Shown one piece after another: positions 6,608-39,068 of a DNA stretch of 39,704 nt. A program made the translations under genes and the position numbers. The first letter of the stretch is position 1, and the number at the start of each line of letters is the position of its first letter. The stretch is from Cyclobacterium xiamenense (lineage in GTDB: Bacteria > Bacteroidota > Bacteroidia > Cytophagales > Cyclobacteriaceae): NCBI RefSeq assembly GCF_009467825.1, contig NZ_WIOK01000042.1, positions 1-39,704 of the forward strand. Reading direction: 5' to 3'. The notes beneath the pieces were generated by a model. It was not told the origin of the DNA and did not search any database. It saw nothing but the letters and a program-made list of their open reading frames with translations.

Positions 6608-7651
6608 TTATTTTTCTTGGGTAGCTACCTTCAGTGGTCTTGGCGAAAATTTAGAGGCAGTATTGGAAATGGCGGCAATGTGTTCCGGTGTGGTGCCGCA
6701 GCAGCCACCCAGAATATTGATCCAGCCTTCCTTAAGAAAATCCGTCAATTGATCGTTCATTTCACCCGGACCTTGATCGTATTTTCCAAACTCATTGGGA
6801 AGACCGGCATTGGGATAGACGCTTACGTAATAGGGGGCATTTTCGGCCAAAACCTTCAGGTAAGGGCGCAACTCTTTGGCTCCCAGCGCACAATTTAGCC
6901 CGATGCTAAGCAGGGGCACATGGGAGAGCGAAATCAAAAAGGCTTCGGTAGTCTGGCCGGAAAGGGTCCTGCCCGAGGCATCCGTGATGGTTCCAGATAC
7001 CATGATGGGAATTCCGCCATCCTGCGGATCCAGGGGAATCCCTCTTTTTTCGTAGACCTCTTGTATTGCGAAGAGGGCTGCTTTGGCATTTAGGGTGTCG
7101 AAGATGGTTTCGATCAACAGCATATCAACGCCTCCATCCAACAATCCTTCCACCTGCTCGCTGTAGGCTTCCACCAGTTGGTCAAAATTAATTGCCCGGT
7201 AGCCTGGGTCGTTTACATCGGGCGAAAGGGAAGCCGTACGGTTGGTAGGACCGATGGCACCCGCTACAAATCGGGGCTTTTTTGGATTTTTTGCGGTACA
7301 GGCATCGGCCACCTCGCGCGCCAGTCGGGCCGATTCCGCATTGAGTTGGTAAGCCAGGTCGGCAAGGCCGTAGTCTTCCTGGGCAATGGATGTGCTGCTA
7401 AAGGTATTCGTTTCGACAATATCCGCACCCGCATCAAAATAGGCTTGATGGATCTCTTTGATGATTTCCGGCCGGGTGAGTGAGAGCAGGTCGTTGTTTC
7501 CCTTCAGGGACTTCTTCACTCCATAGAGGGCCTCGTTTCTAAAATCGTCTTCCTGCAGGGCATACCGCTGTATCATGGTACCCATGGCCCCATCCAAAAT
7601 CAATATTCTTTTTTGCAGCTGCTGAAGCAATACTTCGGTTCTGTTTGGCAT
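6608..7651 (-). CDS. Methionine synthase, homocysteine S-methyltransferase part
   Basis: This 347-residue protein is the N-terminal homocysteine-binding barrel of MetH encoded as its own gene. It begins with [14 protein letters not shown] (about residues 17-30). It holds the three zinc-binding cysteines expected for homocysteine activation: Cys254 in GLNCALG, and Cys317 and Cys318 in [11 protein letters not shown]. Other family landmarks are [10 protein letters not shown] (about 77-86) and [11 protein letters not shown] (about 128-138). The next gene supplies the remaining domains, so the active enzyme must assemble from two polypeptides. The SAM riboswitch lies in its leader, 70-180 bases upstream. 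Confidence 0.95.
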
Positions 7652-7720: not shown

Positions 7721-7830
7721 TTTTCGGCTCATCTTTATCCGGCATGTCCGGAACGGGAATTAGCACCTTGTCACATCAGGTTGCTAAGACATCATAGGGC
7801 CCTACCCTCCGTCTTTCTCGATAAGCAATG
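7721..7830 (-). promoter_or_regulatory. SAM-I (S-box) riboswitch in the metH leader
   Basis: On the minus strand the leader shows, in order, the P1/P2 start CTTATCGAGAAAG, the kink-turn block GGAGGGTAGGGCCC, TATGATGTCTTAGCAACC, then AAGGTGCTAATTCC, a P4 hairpin with CCGGACATGCCGG, and the closing GATAAAGATGAG. These match the conserved core of the SAM-I aptamer. SAM binding would be expected to reduce expression of the methionine-synthesis genes downstream. I see no obvious U-tract terminator between the aptamer and the ATG at 7651, so control may be at translation initiation. The predicted transcription start coincides with the 5' edge of the aptamer. Confidence 0.93.
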
Positions 7831-23590: not shown

Positions 23591-24433
23591 ATGAAAACCG
23601 GAAGTCAACCCTTGATCCCTCCTACCGTCCTGGCAGCGCTGGTAAAGGACCCTGCAGTGGTGCTGGTAGATGCCCGTTTTGACAAAGAAGCCTATAAAAA
23701 GCAACACCTTCGTGGCGCGATTCACGTCGCTTTAAACGAGGACTTGTCCGATATCAAAGAAAACCCTGCTGCCGGAGGAAGGCATCCCCTCCCCACGCCA
23801 ACGGACTTCGGCAAAACTCTGGGCAAACTGGGAATCCGTCCGGAAAGCCGGGTCATTGTTTACGATGACAAGCAGGGCGGTATGTCTGCTGCCCGGTTCT
23901 GGTGGATGTTGACGGCCGTTGGACATACCCAGGTACAGGTAGTGGATGGGGGACTGCAAGCGGCGGTGTCCGCAGGATTCCCAACGGCCTCCGGTGAAGA
24001 AATCCCGACACCAGGACCCGCCTATCCGGTACAGCAGTGGCAGTTGCCCCTGGCGGACATGGAAGAGGTGGGAGCGAAGGCCGGCGCAGAAGACTGCCGG
24101 GTGATCGACGTACGCGAGGCTGTGCGCTACTCCGGGGCCACCGAACCCATTGACCTGGTGGCTGGTCACATACCTGGAGCCATAAATGTACCTTTCTCAG
24201 AAAACCTGGGAGCGGATGGCTTCTTTCTGCCCGCAGACACCCTCAAAGCAAAATACCAGGAAGTGCTTGCCGGCATTTCTCCGGAAAACACCGCGATACA
24301 CTGCGGGTCGGGTGTCACCGCCTGCCACACCTTATTGGCACTGGCGCATGCCGGGCTGGAAATCCCCAAACTCTACGTGGGTTCCTGGAGCGAATGGTCC
24401 CGAAACAACCGTCCCATCGCCACAGAAAAATGA
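23591..24433 (+). CDS. Tandem-rhodanese sulfurtransferase (thiosulfate / 3-mercaptopyruvate type)
   Basis: A 280-residue protein of two rhodanese domains: an inactive N-terminal one (about 8-130, VLVDARFDKEAYKKQHLRGAIHV) and a catalytic C-terminal one (about 160-275). The active-site loop CGSGVTAC places the persulfide-carrying Cys238. CGSGVTA is the form more typical of 3-mercaptopyruvate sulfurtransferase, whereas thiosulfate sulfurtransferases usually have CRKGVTA. The DxR motif VIDVREAVRY is present. It transfers sulfane sulfur to an acceptor in the cytosol. Its stop overlaps the start of the HipA-like kinase gene by four bases (ATGA), suggesting an operon. Confidence 0.92.
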   Translation: MKTGSQPLIPPTVLAALVKDPAVVLVDARFDKEAYKKQHLRGAIHVALNEDLSDIKENPAAGGRHPLPTPTDFGKTLGKLGIRPESRVIVYDDKQGGMSAARFWWMLTAVGHTQVQVVDGGLQAAVSAGFPTASGEEIPTPGPAYPVQQWQLPLADMEEVGAKAGAEDCRVIDVREAVRYSGATEPIDLVAGHIPGAINVPFSENLGADGFFLPADTLKAKYQEVLAGISPENTAIHCGSGVTACHTLLALAHAGLEIPKLYVGSWSEWSRNNRPIATEK

Positions 24434-25221
24434 ACGAAGTAGCACTCCGTACGGTACAGGTCATGCAATACAAAATGCCTTTGCGTGAGGGAGGCTCCCT
24501 GCCCGCCCTGGCCCAGGCAGACGACGGCTTTAACTACGTGATCAAATTCCGAGGCGCCGGACAACGGGAAAAGGCCTTACTGGCGGAACTGTTGGGTGGA
24601 GAAATCGCCCGGTTATTGGGATTCAAGGTACCGGAGTTGGTCTTTGCCCGGCTGGACCCGGCATTTGGCCAAACGGAGGGAGACGAAGAAATCCAGGACT
24701 TATTGAAAAGCAGCCAGGGATTGAATCTGGGGCTTCATTTCTTATCCGCAGCGGTCAATTTTGATCCGGCAGCCGATGCGGTTTCAAGCGAACTGGCATC
24801 GGCCGTCGTCTGGCTGGATGCCTACATTACCAACGTGGACCGAACCTTTCGGAATACCAACATGCTGATGTGGCACCGGGAACTGTGGCTGATCGACCAT
24901 GGCGCCTCCTTTATTTTTCACCATACCTGGGAAAACTGGGAAAAACACGCCAAAAGCCCTTTCCCCCTGATCAAAGATCACGTGTTATTGCCCCGGGCCG
25001 GAGAATTGGAAAAAGCCGACGAGAAGTTCAGACAACTACTTACCCCAGAGGCACTCTGGAACATCGTCCAATCCCTACCCGGGGAATGGCTGGAAGCCAT
25101 GGGAGAAACCGGAGCAATGGAAGACTGGAAGCAGGTGTATACGGATTTTCTATTGCTCCGGCTCAAGCATTCGGAAACCTTTTTAAACGAAGCACAGCAT
25201 GCCAGAAAAGCACTTGTATGA
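24430..25221 (+). CDS. HipA-like kinase family protein
   Basis: A 263-residue protein with the core of a HipA-type Ser/Thr kinase and without the N-terminal subdomain of full HipA. Visible motifs are the nucleotide-binding Lys39 in FNYVIKFRG, a helix REKALLAELLGGEIARLLGF (46-65), the catalytic loop TNVDRTFRNTNM with Asp137 and Asn142/Asn144, and a metal-binding Asp156 in LIDHGASF (replacing the DFG-like motif). It matches the family annotated as HipA-like kinase, commonly paired with DUF3037, as here, where the DUF3037 gene overlaps its end by 23 bases. The phosphorylation target is unknown. The start ATG at 24430 overlaps the sulfurtransferase stop. Confidence 0.82.
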   Translation: MNEVALRTVQVMQYKMPLREGGSLPALAQADDGFNYVIKFRGAGQREKALLAELLGGEIARLLGFKVPELVFARLDPAFGQTEGDEEIQDLLKSSQGLNLGLHFLSAAVNFDPAADAVSSELASAVVWLDAYITNVDRTFRNTNMLMWHRELWLIDHGASFIFHHTWENWEKHAKSPFPLIKDHVLLPRAGELEKADEKFRQLLTPEALWNIVQSLPGEWLEAMGETGAMEDWKQVYTDFLLLRLKHSETFLNEAQHARKALV

Positions 25222-25582
25222 GTATGCCATCATTCGGGTAGTGCCCCGGGTGGAGAAGGAGGAATTCATCAACGTGGGCGTGGTCCTTTGCTCCATACAG
25301 CAGCAATACCTCCGCTGTACCGCGGTCCTGAACGAACAAAAACTAAAAGCGCTGGACCCCGAGACCGATACGGAAACGATCCGAAAACACCTCCAGGCAT
25401 TCATACAGGTATGTGAGGGGAAAAATGCCAACAGCCCCATTTCCAAGGAACCCATCGCTTCCCGCTTTCGCTGGCTGACCGCTGTCCGAAGTTCCATCAT
25501 CCAAACTTCCCGACCCCATCCAGGGATTTCCCCCGATTTGGACGAAACCGTGGATGCCCTGCTGAAAGCCTACGTGCAGTAA
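25199..25582 (+). CDS. DUF3037 family protein
   Basis: The 127-residue protein shows the DUF3037 pattern: an N-terminal EYAIIRVVPRVEKEEFINVG strand-helix block (residues 8-27), followed by VVLCSIQQQYLRCTAVLNE, and a conserved ending around FRWLTAVRSSIIQTSRPHPG (about 90-109). The function of the family is not established. It overlaps the HipA-like kinase gene by 23 bases, so the two are very probably translated together. Whether it is a substrate, partner or inhibitor of the kinase is open. The 381-bp repeat array begins 27 bases after its stop. Confidence 0.85.
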   Translation: MPEKHLYEYAIIRVVPRVEKEEFINVGVVLCSIQQQYLRCTAVLNEQKLKALDPETDTETIRKHLQAFIQVCEGKNANSPISKEPIASRFRWLTAVRSSIIQTSRPHPGISPDLDETVDALLKAYVQ

Positions 25583-25609
25583 GTCCTCCACGAGCAATCC
25601 GGCGACCGA

Positions 25610-27665
25610 CCCACGGATCACGAATCACCCTACGCCTCCAACCCCAGACGGGGTTGAATCGTGTGCCCTGCGATCGAGCCCAGATCGGCAGCCGAGACAG
25701 GATGGCAAAATCCAGCATCGAGGTGCAAGCGGTGGTTCAACCCGCTTCGGGGTTGGGGAAAGGATTTATCGGCGCCTGGGCCCCGGGTTTCGCCCGGGGT
25801 TATTGTTAGGGAAGCCCTTCAGGTTTCGGCGTCGAATGGACGCTTGTTTGTAGGAAAATACTAAGGGACGTCATTTCATCGGATTAATCGAACGGAAGAT
25901 CGCTTTCTATAAACACCCTTTCTGACTGTTGATGATTTCCGCTGTAAGGACAGGCCTGAAGGGCCTGAACAATACTAACCGTGGGTGCAGCCCACGGATC
26001 GCGAATCACCCTACGCCGCCAACCCCAGACGGGGTTGAATCGTGTGCCCTGCGATCGAGCCCAGATCGGCAGCGGAGACACAATGGCAAAATCCAGCATC
26101 GAGGTGCAAGCGGTAGTTCAACCCGCTTCGGGGTTGGGGAAAGGATTTATCGGCGCCTGGGCCCCGGGTTTCGCCCGGGGTTATTGTTAGGGAAGCCCTT
26201 CAGGCCTCGGCGTCGAATGGACGCTTGTTTGTAGGAAAATACTAAGGGACGTCATTTCATCGGATTGCTCGAACGGAAGATCGCTTTCTATAAACACCCT
26301 TTCTGACTGTTGATGATTTCCGCTGTAAGGACAGGCCTGAAGGGCCTGAACAATACTAACCGTGGGTGCAGCCTACGGATCACGAATCACCCTACGCCTC
26401 CAACCCCAGACGGGGTTGAATCGTGTGCCCTGCGATCGAGCCCAGATCGGCAGCCGAGACAGGATGGCAAAATCCAGCATCGAGGTGCAAGCGGTGGTTC
26501 AACCCGCTTCGGGGTTGGGGAAAGGATTTATCGGCGCTTGGGCCCCGGGTTTCGCCCGGGGTTATTGTTAGGGAAGCCCTTCAGGCTTCGGCGTCGAATG
26601 GACGCTTGTTTGTAGGAAAATACTAAGGGACGTCATTTCATCGGATTGCTCGAACGGAAGATCGCTTTCTATAAACACCCTTTTTGACTGTTGATGATTT
26701 CCGCTGTAAGGACAGGCCTGAAGGGCCTGAACAATACTAACCGTGGGTGCAGCCCACGGATCACGAATCACCCTACGCCGCCAACCCCGGACGGGGTTGA
26801 ATCGTATGCCCTGCGATCGAGCCCAGATCGGCAACGGAGACACAATGGCAAAATCCAGCATCGAGGTGCAAGCGGTGGTTCAACCCGCTTCGGGGTTGGG
26901 GAAAGGATTTATCGGCGTCTGGGCCCCGGGTTTCGCCCGGGGTTATTGTTAGGGAAGCCCTTCAGGCTTCGGCGTCGAATGGACGCTTGTTTGTAGGAAA
27001 ATACTAAGGGACGTCATTTCATCGGATTGCTCGAACGGAAGATCGCTTTCTATAAACACCCTTTCTGACTGTTGATGATTTCCGCTGTAAGGACAGGCCT
27101 GAAGGGCCTGAACAATACTAACCGTGGGTGCAGCCCACGGATCGCGAATCACCCTACGCCGCCAACCCCAGACGGGGTTGAATCGTGTGCCCTGCGATCG
27201 AGCCCAGATCGGCAGCCGAGACAGGATGGCAAAATCCAGCATCGAGGTGCAAGCGGTGGTTCAACCCGCTTCGGGGTTGGGGAAAGGATTTATCGGCGCT
27301 TGGGCCCCGGGTTTCGCCCGGGGTTATTGTTAGGGAAGCCCTTCAGGTTTCGGCGTCGAATGGACGCTTGTTTGTAGGAAAATACTAAGGGACATCATTT
27401 CATCGGATTACTCGAACGGAAGATCGCTTTCTATAAACACCCTTTCTGACTGTTGATGATTTCCGCTGTAAGGACAGGCCTGAAGGGCCTGAACAATACT
27501 AACCGTGGGTGCAGCCCACGGATCGCGAATCACCCTACGCCGCCAACCCCGGACGGGGTTGAATCGTATGCCCTGCGATCGAGCCCAGATCGGCAACGGA
27601 GACAGGATGGAAAAATCCAGTATCGAGGTGCAAGCGGTGGTTCAACCCGCTTCGGGGTTGGGGAA
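25610..27665. repeat. Tandem array of a 381-bp hairpin-rich unit (five full copies and a 151-bp partial)
   Basis: Counted from the anchor CCCACGGATC, copies start at 25610, 25991, 26372, 26753, 27134 and 27515, exactly 381 bases apart. The last copy breaks off near 27665, inside the segment GGTTGGGGAA. Copies differ at only scattered bases. In the second copy the predicted stems are CAGGCC/GGCCTG (25951-25967), CCGTGGG/CCCACGG (25979-25997), AACCCC/GGGGTT (26021-26036), AACCC/GGGTT (26120-26135), CCCCGGG/CCCGGGG (26162-26180) and GCGTC/GACGC (26210-26224). A frame of 101 codons recurs in each copy, but its composition looks non-coding and it ends in every unit. There are no flanking direct repeats or transposase gene. 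Function is unknown; structured RNA, a recombination-expanded repeat element or a binding array are possible. Confidence 0.95.
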
Positions 27666-27769
27666 TCGGCTCGGCTACTTGTCGAATTGACCCATCCCGT
27701 TAATTTTTTAGGCCATTTTCCGGGAATTCAGCGGTGGAGTGTTATTTTTAGCTTTCCAAAAACCTACCC

Positions 27770-29317
27770 ATGAAACAATCCACGAATAAAAACAGCCTGC
27801 TGGACCGGTTTCTCAACAGCATTGAGCGCGCTGGCAACAAATTACCGGATCCTGCCGTGCTTTTTTTGATCCTTATGCTGCTCACCTGGCTTTTTTCGGC
27901 ATTACTGTCACCCATCGATTTCAACGAATTGGACCCACGGACAGGCGAAAAACTGTACATCCAAAACCTGCTAACCGGTGAACGTATCGCTGCGTTTCTT
28001 TCGCGAATGATTCCCACCTTCATTAATTTCCCTCCCCTAGGCGTGGTACTACTGGCGATGCTCGGCGTGGGCGTGGCAGAGTATTCCGGCTTTATCAATG
28101 CCGGTCTGAAATACCTGTTGGGATTTACGCCAAAAAGCCTGCTCACTCCCATTTTGGTATTGGTAGCCATTGTCAGCCATACGGCTGCGGATGCCGGTTA
28201 CGTGCTGGTCATTCCCCTGGGAGGCGTGATTTTCTATGCCGCCGGCCGGCACCCGCTGGCGGGGATCGCTGCTACCTTTGCGGGGGTCTCCGGTGGATTC
28301 AGTGCCAATTTTATTCCCTCGGCCATCGACCCGCTTTTGCAATCCTTCACGCAGTCTGCGGCCCAAATCCTGGATCCCGGCATTCAGTTAAACCCCTTGA
28401 ACAATATTTTCTTTACCGGTCTTTCCAGCTTGGTGGTGATCGGGGTGGCCTGGTACCTGACCGACAGGGTTATTGAGCCGCGGCTGTTGCGCACCAATCC
28501 CGTAGACGAAAACCTGACGGACGTGCCCCGAATGGACGAATTGGGTCCCAAAGAGAAAAAAGGATTTAAACTAGCCAGCCTGGTCTTGGTGCTGGGCCTG
28601 CTGGGTTTGGTTGCCTGGGCTTACCCGCTGGATTCCAGCCTTCGGGCCCCCGATGGAGAAATTACCTCTTTTGCTGCTCCTTTGATGCAATCCATTGTTC
28701 CGCTAATTTTCCTCGTCTTTTGGATCCCGGGCATCCTCTACGGATTCGTTGCCGGCACCTATACATCCTCCGGCGATGTGATCGCCTCCATGAGCAAAGC
28801 CATGGGAAGCATGGCGCAGTACATCGTCATGGCCTTTTTCTGCGCGCTCTTTATCGATGCCTTCTCCCAGTCGAATATTGGATCCATGACGGCACTAAAA
28901 GGAGCGGCCTTTCTGCAAAGCCTGCAATTGCCCTCGCAGGTAACGGTGGTCGGGATCGTCTTTCTAAGCGCTTTTGTCAACCTGTTGGTTGGATCGGCAT
29001 CGGCCAAATGGGCCCTGATCAGCCCCATCTTTGTTCCCATGCTTATGCAGCTGGGAATTTCCCCCGACCTGACGCAGGCCGCCTACCGCGTGGGCGATTC
29101 GGTATCCAACATCATCACTCCCCTCCTTCCCTATTTTCCCCTGGTGGTGATCTTTGGCCAACGGTACGTGAAAAACACCGGTATCGGAACCCTGGTTTCG
29201 CTCATGCTGCCCTATACCATGTATTTACTGGTGATCTGGACCGCCTTTCTGCTGATTTACTGGACGCTGGAAATCCCACTGGGACTTCAATCTTCCTACG
29301 AATACACGGGCTTTTAA
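27770..29317 (+). CDS. AbgT family transporter
   Basis: A 515-residue inner-membrane protein with about 12-13 hydrophobic segments. Family signatures are the N-terminal SIERAGNKLPDPAVLFLILM block (about residues 17-36), SHTAADAGYVLVIPLGGVIF (about 140-160), GVSGGFSANFIPSAIDPLLQ (about 175-195) and the conserved SASAKWALISPIFVPMLMQLG hairpin near 405-425. AbgT proteins import p-aminobenzoyl-glutamate or, in several species, export sulfonamides and other antimetabolites. The direction here cannot be told. The gene starts about 100 bases after the repeat array; a weak -7-like TATTTTTA lies 25 bases before the ATG. A hydrolase gene follows after 15 bases, probably in the same transcript. Confidence 0.93.
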   Translation: MKQSTNKNSLLDRFLNSIERAGNKLPDPAVLFLILMLLTWLFSALLSPIDFNELDPRTGEKLYIQNLLTGERIAAFLSRMIPTFINFPPLGVVLLAMLGVGVAEYSGFINAGLKYLLGFTPKSLLTPILVLVAIVSHTAADAGYVLVIPLGGVIFYAAGRHPLAGIAATFAGVSGGFSANFIPSAIDPLLQSFTQSAAQILDPGIQLNPLNNIFFTGLSSLVVIGVAWYLTDRVIEPRLLRTNPVDENLTDVPRMDELGPKEKKGFKLASLVLVLGLLGLVAWAYPLDSSLRAPDGEITSFAAPLMQSIVPLIFLVFWIPGILYGFVAGTYTSSGDVIASMSKAMGSMAQYIVMAFFCALFIDAFSQSNIGSMTALKGAAFLQSLQLPSQVTVVGIVFLSAFVNLLVGSASAKWALISPIFVPMLMQLGISPDLTQAAYRVGDSVSNIITPLLPYFPLVVIFGQRYVKNTGIGTLVSLMLPYTMYLLVIWTAFLLIYWTLEIPLGLQSSYEYTGF

Positions 29318-38615: not shown

Positions 38616-39068
38616 AGATCAGGAGTGTGGATTCGATTTGATAACAAGACTACACGTGATGCAGAATAATTCAGTAATTATTTTTAAAATACTGAATTAT
38701 TTTTTTAAAACCGATTCTGTTGTTGAAAAATTTTTCCACTGGAAAAAAAATTACTGGCCCCGGCGCTATGTATGAGTATTTTGAAGCACACATAGTGTAA
38801 TGAAACAAATTTTTACTATATATTATTTTTTATTTTTTTACTTTTTATATTTTTTATACTGAATTTTATTACATGAACCAAATTTAGTTCTTATCCGGTT
38901 ATTTCTATGTCGGCCGAAAAAACTGATCAGAATTTACTAACCAATGTAAATACGTATCGGCGCAGATGCTAAGGGAATTGACAAGAAATAGGAAACGGAC
39001 CCTTCCTAATTCTTGTCAACCCACTCGGGTCCATTTGAATCAAACTTCAATTAAAAACCTAAAAAGTT
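38616..39068. other. AT-rich intergenic region with inverted repeats and a short frame
   Basis: This 453-base stretch contains a 12-bp inverted repeat AATAATTCAGTA / TACTGAATTATT (38665-38676 and 38690-38701), followed by a T-run, and a third TACTGAATT at 38857-38865. A very AT-rich block follows around 38800-38880. Then a 21-codon frame at 38907-38972 (ATGTCGGCC... ending TGC TAA; MSAEKTDQNLLTNVNTYRRR and Cys) precedes the pseudoknot described separately. The role could be regulatory for either flanking gene; no strong promoter was found. Confidence 0.7.
38978..39032 (+). ncRNA. Predicted H-type pseudoknot RNA structure in a leader
   Basis: TTGACAAGAAATAGGAA (38978-38994) pairs with TTCCTAATTCTTGTCAA (39003-39019) over 17 positions with a single mismatch. 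The eight-base loop ACGGACCC contains GGACCC (38997-39002), which is complementary to GGGTCC (39027-39032) just beyond the stem. That geometry forms a compact H-type pseudoknot, in competition with a small hairpin ACCC/GGGT. It lies 36 bases before the ATG of the 59-residue lipoprotein gene and six bases after the 21-codon frame. A cis-regulatory leader is the simplest reading; alternatively a small RNA or an inverted-repeat DNA site. Confidence 0.5.

Follow-up and report, generated by a model that had tools for sequence, protein, structure and literature searches.

The window analysed here is a 39,704-nucleotide stretch of DNA from Cyclobacterium xiamenense (contig NZ_WIOK01000042.1), which contains, at 25610-27665, a tandem array of a hairpin-rich sequence lying between two co-directional + strand genes, one for a DUF3037 protein and the other for an AbgT protein. 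At 24394-25582 a HipA_2 kinase-like gene overlaps the DUF3037 gene, both being assigned by Pfam, which agrees with the HipA-like/DUF3037 neighbours named in a first-pass annotation of the same DNA. That annotation also described five full copies and a partial copy of a 381-bp unit with few changes, and the description holds: Tandem Repeats Finder (TRF) gives a period of 381, 5.4 copies, 97% matches, 0% indels and a score of 3881, any two of the five full copies differ at 5-12 of 381 positions, and the sixth copy runs for 151 bp in the same phase. Here, we set out the evidence that such an array most likely stems from mobile DNA instead of being an RNA gene, and describe the transposase gene with which its repeat is associated in related genomes.

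The basic unit of the repeat is a module of ~92 nt consisting of a first hairpin (HP1), a second (HP2), an ATT-rich linker and a third hairpin (HP3), and two inverted modules form a palindromic element of ~306 nt; nhmmer places the bounds of the element at the same ~306 nt, and the element matches itself on both strands. Modules were located with a covariance model, termed R2, built from Cyclobacterium modules only; as the RNAalifold structure missed HP1, R2 was given a structure read off the alignment instead. In the window array, R2 recovers 10 full modules (5 +, 5 -) that alternate in strand, with 2 partial modules at the edges. The 'about six' stems per unit counted in the first-pass annotation are thereby accounted for as two sets of three hairpins, to which a weaker seventh hairpin (GCGTC/GACGC) is added in the centre of each unit. 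The features of the array are as follows.

25610-27665, no strand: whole tandem array, consisting of a right-end fragment, five repeats of a 75-bp spacer plus ~306-bp palindromic element, a further spacer and a left-end fragment (TRF, covariance model)
25610-25659, - strand: partial module at the left edge (HP1 and one arm of HP2), weak R2 match at 25587-25659, 20.8 bits
25735-25827, + strand: three-hairpin module, element 1 left half, R2 81.8 bits
25951-26040, - strand: three-hairpin module, element 1 right half, R2 88.3 bits
26041-26115, no strand: example of the 75-bp HP1-to-HP1 spacer, in the same place as tnpA in loci with a gene between modules
26116-26208, + strand: three-hairpin module, element 2 left half, R2 82.8 bits
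26119-26136, + strand: HP1 of element 2 left half, CAACCC/GGGTTG
26162-26180, + strand: HP2 of element 2 left half, CCCCGGG/CCCGGGG, followed by the TTATTGTTA linker
26192-26208, + strand: HP3 of element 2 left half, GAAGCC/GGCCTC, with one A-C mismatch
26209-26331, no strand: example of the 123-bp HP3-to-HP3 centre of an element, with the small seventh hairpin at 26209-26225
26332-26421, - strand: three-hairpin module, element 2 right half, R2 84.4 bits; the + strand reads CCGTGGG/CCTACGG for HP2 and CAGGCC/GGCCTG for HP3
26497-26589, + strand: module, element 3 left half, R2 86.2 bits
26713-26802, - strand: module, element 3 right half, R2 90.7 bits
26878-26970, + strand: module, element 4 left half, R2 86.3 bits
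27094-27183, - strand: module, element 4 right half, R2 88.3 bits
27259-27351, + strand: module, element 5 left half, R2 81.9 bits
27475-27564, - strand: module, element 5 right half, R2 90.4 bits
27640-27665, + strand: partial module at the right edge (HP1 only), weak R2 match at 27640-27703, 22.9 bits

The variable sites of the array alternate by copy, a good example being offset 84, which reads CGCGCG across the six copies. Copies 1, 3 and 5 differ from one another at 5-7 sites and copy 2 from copy 4 at 7, while differences between the two groups number 9-12; because copies 1, 3 and 5 alternate with 2 and 4, it was probably a 762-bp dimer that was amplified last. As the first-pass annotation had held, there is no convincing gene in the repeat, since the only open reading frames (ORFs) of at least 80 aa are ones of 97-106 aa that recur in each copy. 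A protein-coding repeat is disfavoured by these short ORFs together with the position of the array between genes; period length alone is no argument against coding, because most periods of the family are multiples of three (among 381, 384, 405, 419 and 456, only 419 is not). The repeat does not have the make-up of a CRISPR array, its would-be spacers being near-identical copies within the array rather than unique, though no search for cas genes was made. For a plasmid or phage origin, one unit had no match in a plasmid or phage collection.

The array is a local instance of a dispersed family. With one unit as query, BLAST gave 39 matches in the genome to which the window belongs, spread over ten contigs, and matches in 11/11 other genomes of the genus, against 0/27 of the remaining genomes (12/39 including its own), so that a check proposed in the first-pass annotation finds the repeat well beyond this site. 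R2 modules occur in all 12 Cyclobacterium genomes, 9-52 in each when at most 150 candidates were scored per genome, and at least 33 of 296 genomes of the phylum carry a module at E <= 0.001, a lower bound given the strict filters and the 14 candidates scored per genome. Arrays of the family elsewhere have TRF periods of 419, 456, 384 (with a 226 array adjoining) and 405. The spacers between elements, 75 bp in the window and ~111 bp in several other arrays, are near-identical within one array and diverged between most arrays, yet related; over ~80 bp, the window spacer has ~84% similarity to sequence flanking single elements at loci L046 and L055. By eye, some elements in the flanks of L055, L058, L059 and L062-L064 lie in a larger frame whose ends share a AACCTGAGTTCGAT-like inverted sequence, while the frame of others there is different and has CCCAGATCGGCAG-GGAGAC; the frames are combined like a mosaic.

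In two relatives the array holds an ORF of 149-150 aa between elements, the product of which is a Y1_Tnp protein (Pfam, 6.8e-24; IS200/IS605 family transposase in NCBIfam) that matches solved transposases by sequence, ISHp608 among them. We refer to this gene as tnpA. Among 25 aligned TnpA proteins, residues H54, H56, W94, Y114, Q118, H121 and H122 are invariant and the Y---Q--HH signature is present in all; the strict HuH motif DH[IV]H is found in 14/25 and the W motif WQ in 16/25, although both histidines and W94 are always kept, and close-clade proteins of the genus carry WG in the W motif. Close orthologues (69-100% identity) are present as one gene each in 8 of the 12 genus genomes, and the remaining four, including that of the window, have only relatives of 36-41% identity. 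No close tnpA was found in the window genome. Six Y1_Tnp genes of its own were considered as partners and set aside: the four passing E <= 1e-20 are only 36-40% identical to the genus gene, the nhmmer element profile finds nothing within 1.5 kb of any of the six, and R2 gives only weak matches near them (19.8-28.5 bits, at L021 and L025).

The tnpA gene appears to have been present once. In genome G006 (L060), a sulfatase-like and a lipoprotein-like gene (labels given from sequence, by eye) enclose an array with tnpA, and both neighbours are likewise found with tnpA in G008 (L061) and G001 (L057). At the corresponding site of the window genome (L045), the two neighbours are retained (93% identical) and enclose an array and a further 381-aa ORF, without close tnpA; on this comparison, tnpA was probably lost in the window lineage while the arrays were retained. 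L085 (G003) and L086 (G006), both in genomes that also have the main gene, carry a second tnpA that shares 48% identity with it and has a module set of its own. G003 and G006 are different species, and modules of the second gene have a mean similarity of 0.89 between them (six pairs), whereas similarity to the main modules within the same genome is 0.74 (twelve pairs) and 0.77 (eight pairs); the main modules of the two genomes have a similarity of 0.83.

The association between module and tnpA is close. All eight close genus orthologues lie between R2 modules, the left one on the - strand and the right one on the + strand. For a wider view we used the best 80 of at least 551 relatives, picked by protein only (protein patterns and tblastn against named public genomes), of which L153 and L154 are genus genomes that also fed R2. 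A module lies within 400 bp of tnpA at 78 of these 80 loci, on both sides at 56, upstream only at 10, downstream only at 12 and on neither side at 2 (L165, L184). The nearest module is '-' in 59/66 upstream cases and '+' in 64/68 downstream cases, and therefore the HP1 ends mostly face tnpA; the median gap is 27.5 bp at the start of the gene and 12 bp at its end. At the same loci, 210 modules fall within the 76.8 kb less than 500 bp from tnpA, compared with 5 in the 306.8 kb more than 1.5 kb away. The tentative mention in the first-pass annotation of comparable sequences elsewhere in Bacteroidota and in further phyla is confirmed by modules beside tnpA relatives in many Bacteroidota, and by a few such loci in metagenome-assembled genomes (MAGs) labelled Cloacimonadota, Neomarinimicrobiota, Verrucomicrobia, Acidobacteria, Planctomycetaceae and others, labels that can be binning errors. 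In the phylum sample of 296 genomes, where 88 have a TnpA relative at E <= 1e-25 and 28 have both module and relative, the relative is found in 28/33 module-positive and 60/263 module-negative genomes (Fisher p = 3.7e-12, or 1.1e-11 without the window's own genome).

Covariation gives strong support to the structure of the module. Across a set of 74 non-redundant genus modules, the stems of HP1, HP2 and HP3 are paired in 94.3% of cells, and 145 cells show two-sided change compared with 56 in shuffled controls and 3-9 when the partners were slid. For a wider set, 75 of the 80 public loci were searched (L153-L155 and the two loci without a module were excluded) and the model was used to align the best 150 of 183 R2 matches, which came from 62 loci. 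Here two-sided compensatory change is seen in 19 of 20 stem pairs; cells with two-sided change number 662, compared with 171 after shuffling and 19-72 after sliding, and the covariation score is 0.579 vs 0.169 shuffled and at most 0.093 slid, in an alignment that was fitted to R2 with rows picked by R2 and so favours pairing. HP1 starts with ATT or GTT in 140/150 modules, and TGTT, TATT or AATT stands before HP3 in 106/150; at a guess, this RTT foot before HP1 and HP3 is a candidate guide.

The organisation described above is best compared with the repetitive extragenic palindrome (REP) and the systems built on it, namely the bacterial interspersed mosaic element (BIME), REPIN and REPtron, which are associated with the transposase TnpA-REP (or RAYT), class 2 of the TnpA-Y1 family (PMC6006769, PMC8266576, PMC3116915). 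As with REPs and BIMEs, we see dispersed extragenic palindromes whose orientation and linkers both alternate, sometimes in tandem, and the ten window modules alternate +/- in just this way. As in a REPtron, a low-copy HuH/Y1 gene is flanked by the same repeat that is dispersed in the genome, an arrangement found at 8/8 genus loci and, for at least one flank, at 78/80 of the best public loci. The differences are that the repeat is a ~92-nt triple hairpin rather than a palindrome of 20-40 bp, that the GT[AG]G foot is absent, and that the protein has Y---Q--HH and not the Y---NP of class 2. The system works like a REPtron with BIMEs, yet it departs from a canonical REP in three defining features: the foot, the short palindrome and the class 2 protein.

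By motif, length and taxon, on which the placement rests, TnpA would fall instead in subclass 1.2 of Quentin et al. 2018 (PMC6006769), a group from Bacteroidetes and Cyanobacteria with Y---Q--HH and about 148 aa. The protein here has 149 aa, ~30 aa of them beyond the Y1 core, and is likewise low in copy and from Bacteroidota, although its HuH and W motifs are looser. In that paper, the REP column for subclass 1.2 reads 'no' and its members generally lack IS200-type terminal structures, whereas the clade described here has a three-hairpin cognate element. Two further systems share part of this design. TIRtrons, with their TIRYT proteins (PMC3733652), have a Y1 transposase gene between long terminal inverted repeats (TIRs), some of which form genomic repeat families and several of which share a GGGGWSAS motif, but they are discussed by Quentin et al. 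under subclass 2.1, another protein class. IS200/IS605 elements (TnpA-IS200, subclass 1.1) have the same catalytic core family and hairpins at both gene ends; they differ in that the modules here are inverted and three-hairpin, and in that there is one close orthologue in each of eight genus genomes (69-100% identical to the query) and none in four, not several near-identical copies. We found no earlier report of a repeat for subclass 1.2 in the open-licence literature, a scope that does not establish its absence from print.

Taken together, these data make it very probable that the window holds a BIME-like array in which a non-autonomous, non-canonical REP-type element is repeated in tandem. 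Several results weigh against this interpretation. GT[AG]G occurs at 1 of 443 stem feet (74 modules, both strands), and the array region, 25500-27800, contains 9 terminator-like patterns compared with 3.2 in shuffles under a loose rule. Five of the 33 module-positive phylum genomes lack a TnpA relative at E <= 1e-25, and module number shows no relation to tnpA presence across the 12 genus genomes (19, 24, 26, 52, 39, 29, 19 and 41 with close tnpA; 43, 32, 13 and 9 without). Of 30 TnpA loci taken from the phylum sample, 20 have a module within the stretch retrieved and 10 have none: it is found at 17/17 of L123-L139 (45-65% identity; on one side only in some) and at 3 of the other 13 (L141, L148 and L149, two of them weak). 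Finally, when Pfam score was used to pick 30 Y1 loci from 118 phylum genomes, a module was found at only 2 of them (L252 and, weakly, L246), and one of those without, L243, encodes a 45%-identical TnpA relative.

As at least 16 of these 30 Pfam-picked loci show Y---Q--HH by motif scan, extending the module to all Y1 transposases or all Y---Q--HH proteins is unsupported; the module belongs to one clade and not to the whole of subclass 1.2, and the edge of the clade is not sharp. There is a hint that more distant loci carry other elements of their own. Inverted similarity between the two flanks was scored at 53 of the 60 loci L123-L152 and L233-L262 (L136 and L139 left out, five of fewer than 3300 bases dropped) and exceeds the 95% point of a swapped-flank control at 9/12 and 15/26 more distant loci, against 3/15 in the close clade, where the control shares the module across loci. 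Direct flank similarity is also raised (medians 26.5 vs 12.5, 11.25 vs 9.5 and 17.25 vs 10), and as the control mixes genomes of differing composition, the test is suggestive only.

How might such an array arise? Enzymes of the HuH/Y1 type cleave hairpin DNA in single-stranded form and join it again (PMC6006769, PMC8266576). By analogy with its IS200/IS605 and TnpA-REP relatives, TnpA would bind and nick the single-stranded hairpins of the module, for example at a replication fork, and, judging from the anatomy of the repeat, its action could have scattered modules through the genome. The window array would then have been enlarged locally, last as the 762-bp dimer, through unequal recombination, replication slippage between identical elements or HuH-linked re-replication. 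For this tandem step we favour local recombination, because identity is 97% within the array but about 72-75% to elements at other loci, and because of the dimer pattern. As no close tnpA was found in its genome, the window array is probably a relic kept by recombination.

A rather unlikely alternative, though the likeliest of the rivals, is that the transposase itself made the tandem step, by a rolling-circle-like process or by repeated single-strand insertion beside an existing copy, with no part for host recombination. HuH chemistry could in principle prime re-replication. We leave room for a direct enzyme role because tandem arrays (period >= 80) adjoin tnpA, within 600 bp, in 8 of the 80 best public loci, with 10 TRF rows in the 91 kb near the gene vs 4 in 434 kb farther off. 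Against this, the window genome has several arrays and no close tnpA, and near-identical spacers within an array, together with the dimer pattern, are simply explained by recombination. Examples of arrays beside tnpA are those of L204 (Sunxiuqinia elliptica; period 343) and of L172 (137/210) and L161 (88/137), both Bacteroidetes MAGs.

The first-pass annotation had proposed a structured RNA or DNA element, of which the structure is well supported and the DNA half favoured. That the array is instead a tandem set of structured non-coding RNAs or riboregulators, conserved for their RNA fold, would fit the very strong stem covariation, and one unit folds better than 100/100 shuffles on both strands (z -3.26, -3.14); we nevertheless judge it highly improbable. 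The palindromic double module folds about equally on both strands, and G-T pairs are no commoner than A-C on the modelled strand: 18 vs 17 cells in the pooled set, 7 vs 5 and 8 vs 12 when this is split by half (4 rows unclassed), and 32 of 2927 cells (~1%) vs 75 in the wider set, where the A-C excess lies mainly at pairs 64-98 and 11-24. A weak wobble preference may exist for the strand opposite the modelled one. The only Rfam match in the window is a SAM riboswitch elsewhere, with none in 25560-27720 at E <= 1, and the modules cluster at one kind of single-stranded-DNA transposase gene. An RNA role for the array is not supported; with modules paired in inversion, ~1% G-T not above A-C, no Rfam match and this clustering, the evidence leans towards DNA hairpins.

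Terminators or mRNA-stabilising hairpins, kept between DUF3037 and AbgT for regulation, are roles that have been proposed for REPs (PMC3733652), and they would suit an array between two + strand genes with the excess of terminator-like patterns given above. Such patterns recur at the same spots of nearly every copy, as expected of any hairpin repeat, the constant neighbour of the family is tnpA, and three relatives have DUF3037 beside AbgT and no array, which leaves this explanation with very little probability. A side effect of the array on transcription is possible, and an influence on the DUF3037-AbgT junction, if there is one, would be secondary. A further rival, neutral local duplication of ordinary intergenic sequence with no element behind it, accords with an array that is local, recent (97%), not found at orthologous sites of the relatives examined and of a dimer pattern that fits plain unequal recombination, but it is contradicted as a full account, and scarcely credible as one, by the dispersed, phylum-wide and covarying family to which the unit belongs; plain recombination may explain the tandem step alone. 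The single-copy presence in this strain only that the first-pass annotation associated with duplicated junk sequence is not what we find, the family being dispersed in 12/12 genus and at least 33/296 phylum genomes.

Returning to the REP-type reading, a broader proposal can be made tentatively, and we regard it as somewhat less likely than not to be right. A clade of the 'orphan' HuH subclass 1.2 would constitute a distinct repeat-spreading system parallel to RAYT/REP, with the compound three-hairpin module (HP1 and HP3 with the RTT foot, maybe as a guide) as a substrate copied to new sites; other subclass 1.2 lineages would have inverted elements of their own, unrelated in sequence, and large tandem arrays would be a regular product. 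In 2018, subclass 1.2 was set apart as IS200-like genes with neither insertion sequence behaviour nor a listed repeat. Should the module prove to be what at least one clade acts on, direct in vitro tests of what these low-copy genes do become possible, and a hairpin-rich repeat that is widespread in Bacteroidota gains an explanation. A compound substrate, the lack of a GT[AG]G foot and a different catalytic motif would further suggest that REP-like systems arose more than once from IS200-type transposases, and a covariance model of the kind used here would label such arrays in annotation.

The genes around the window array bear on its setting. Seven relatives with an AbgT orthologue have no element within 1.5 kb either side of it. 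Of these, L096 and L099 have HipA_2, DUF3037 and AbgT in order and L101 has DUF3037 and AbgT with HipA_2 matched over its first 29 residues only, all three without the array; L097 has a 50-residue HipA_2 match and no DUF3037, and in L098, L100 and L102 neither was matched. That the pair is kept in order beside AbgT in L096 and L099 suggests that HipA_2-DUF3037 is a conserved two-gene unit. The first-pass annotation had found long amplification next to these genes unusual; the genes are indeed there, but since two relatives keep both by AbgT and a third keeps DUF3037, all without the array, the neighbourhood looks incidental to it. Elsewhere in the window, the SAM riboswitch (RF00162, 78.2 bits) lies at 7726-7827 on the - strand, upstream of a - strand ORF at 6608-7651, and TRF reports a short AT-rich tandem repeat with a period of 15 or 25 at 38810-38857.
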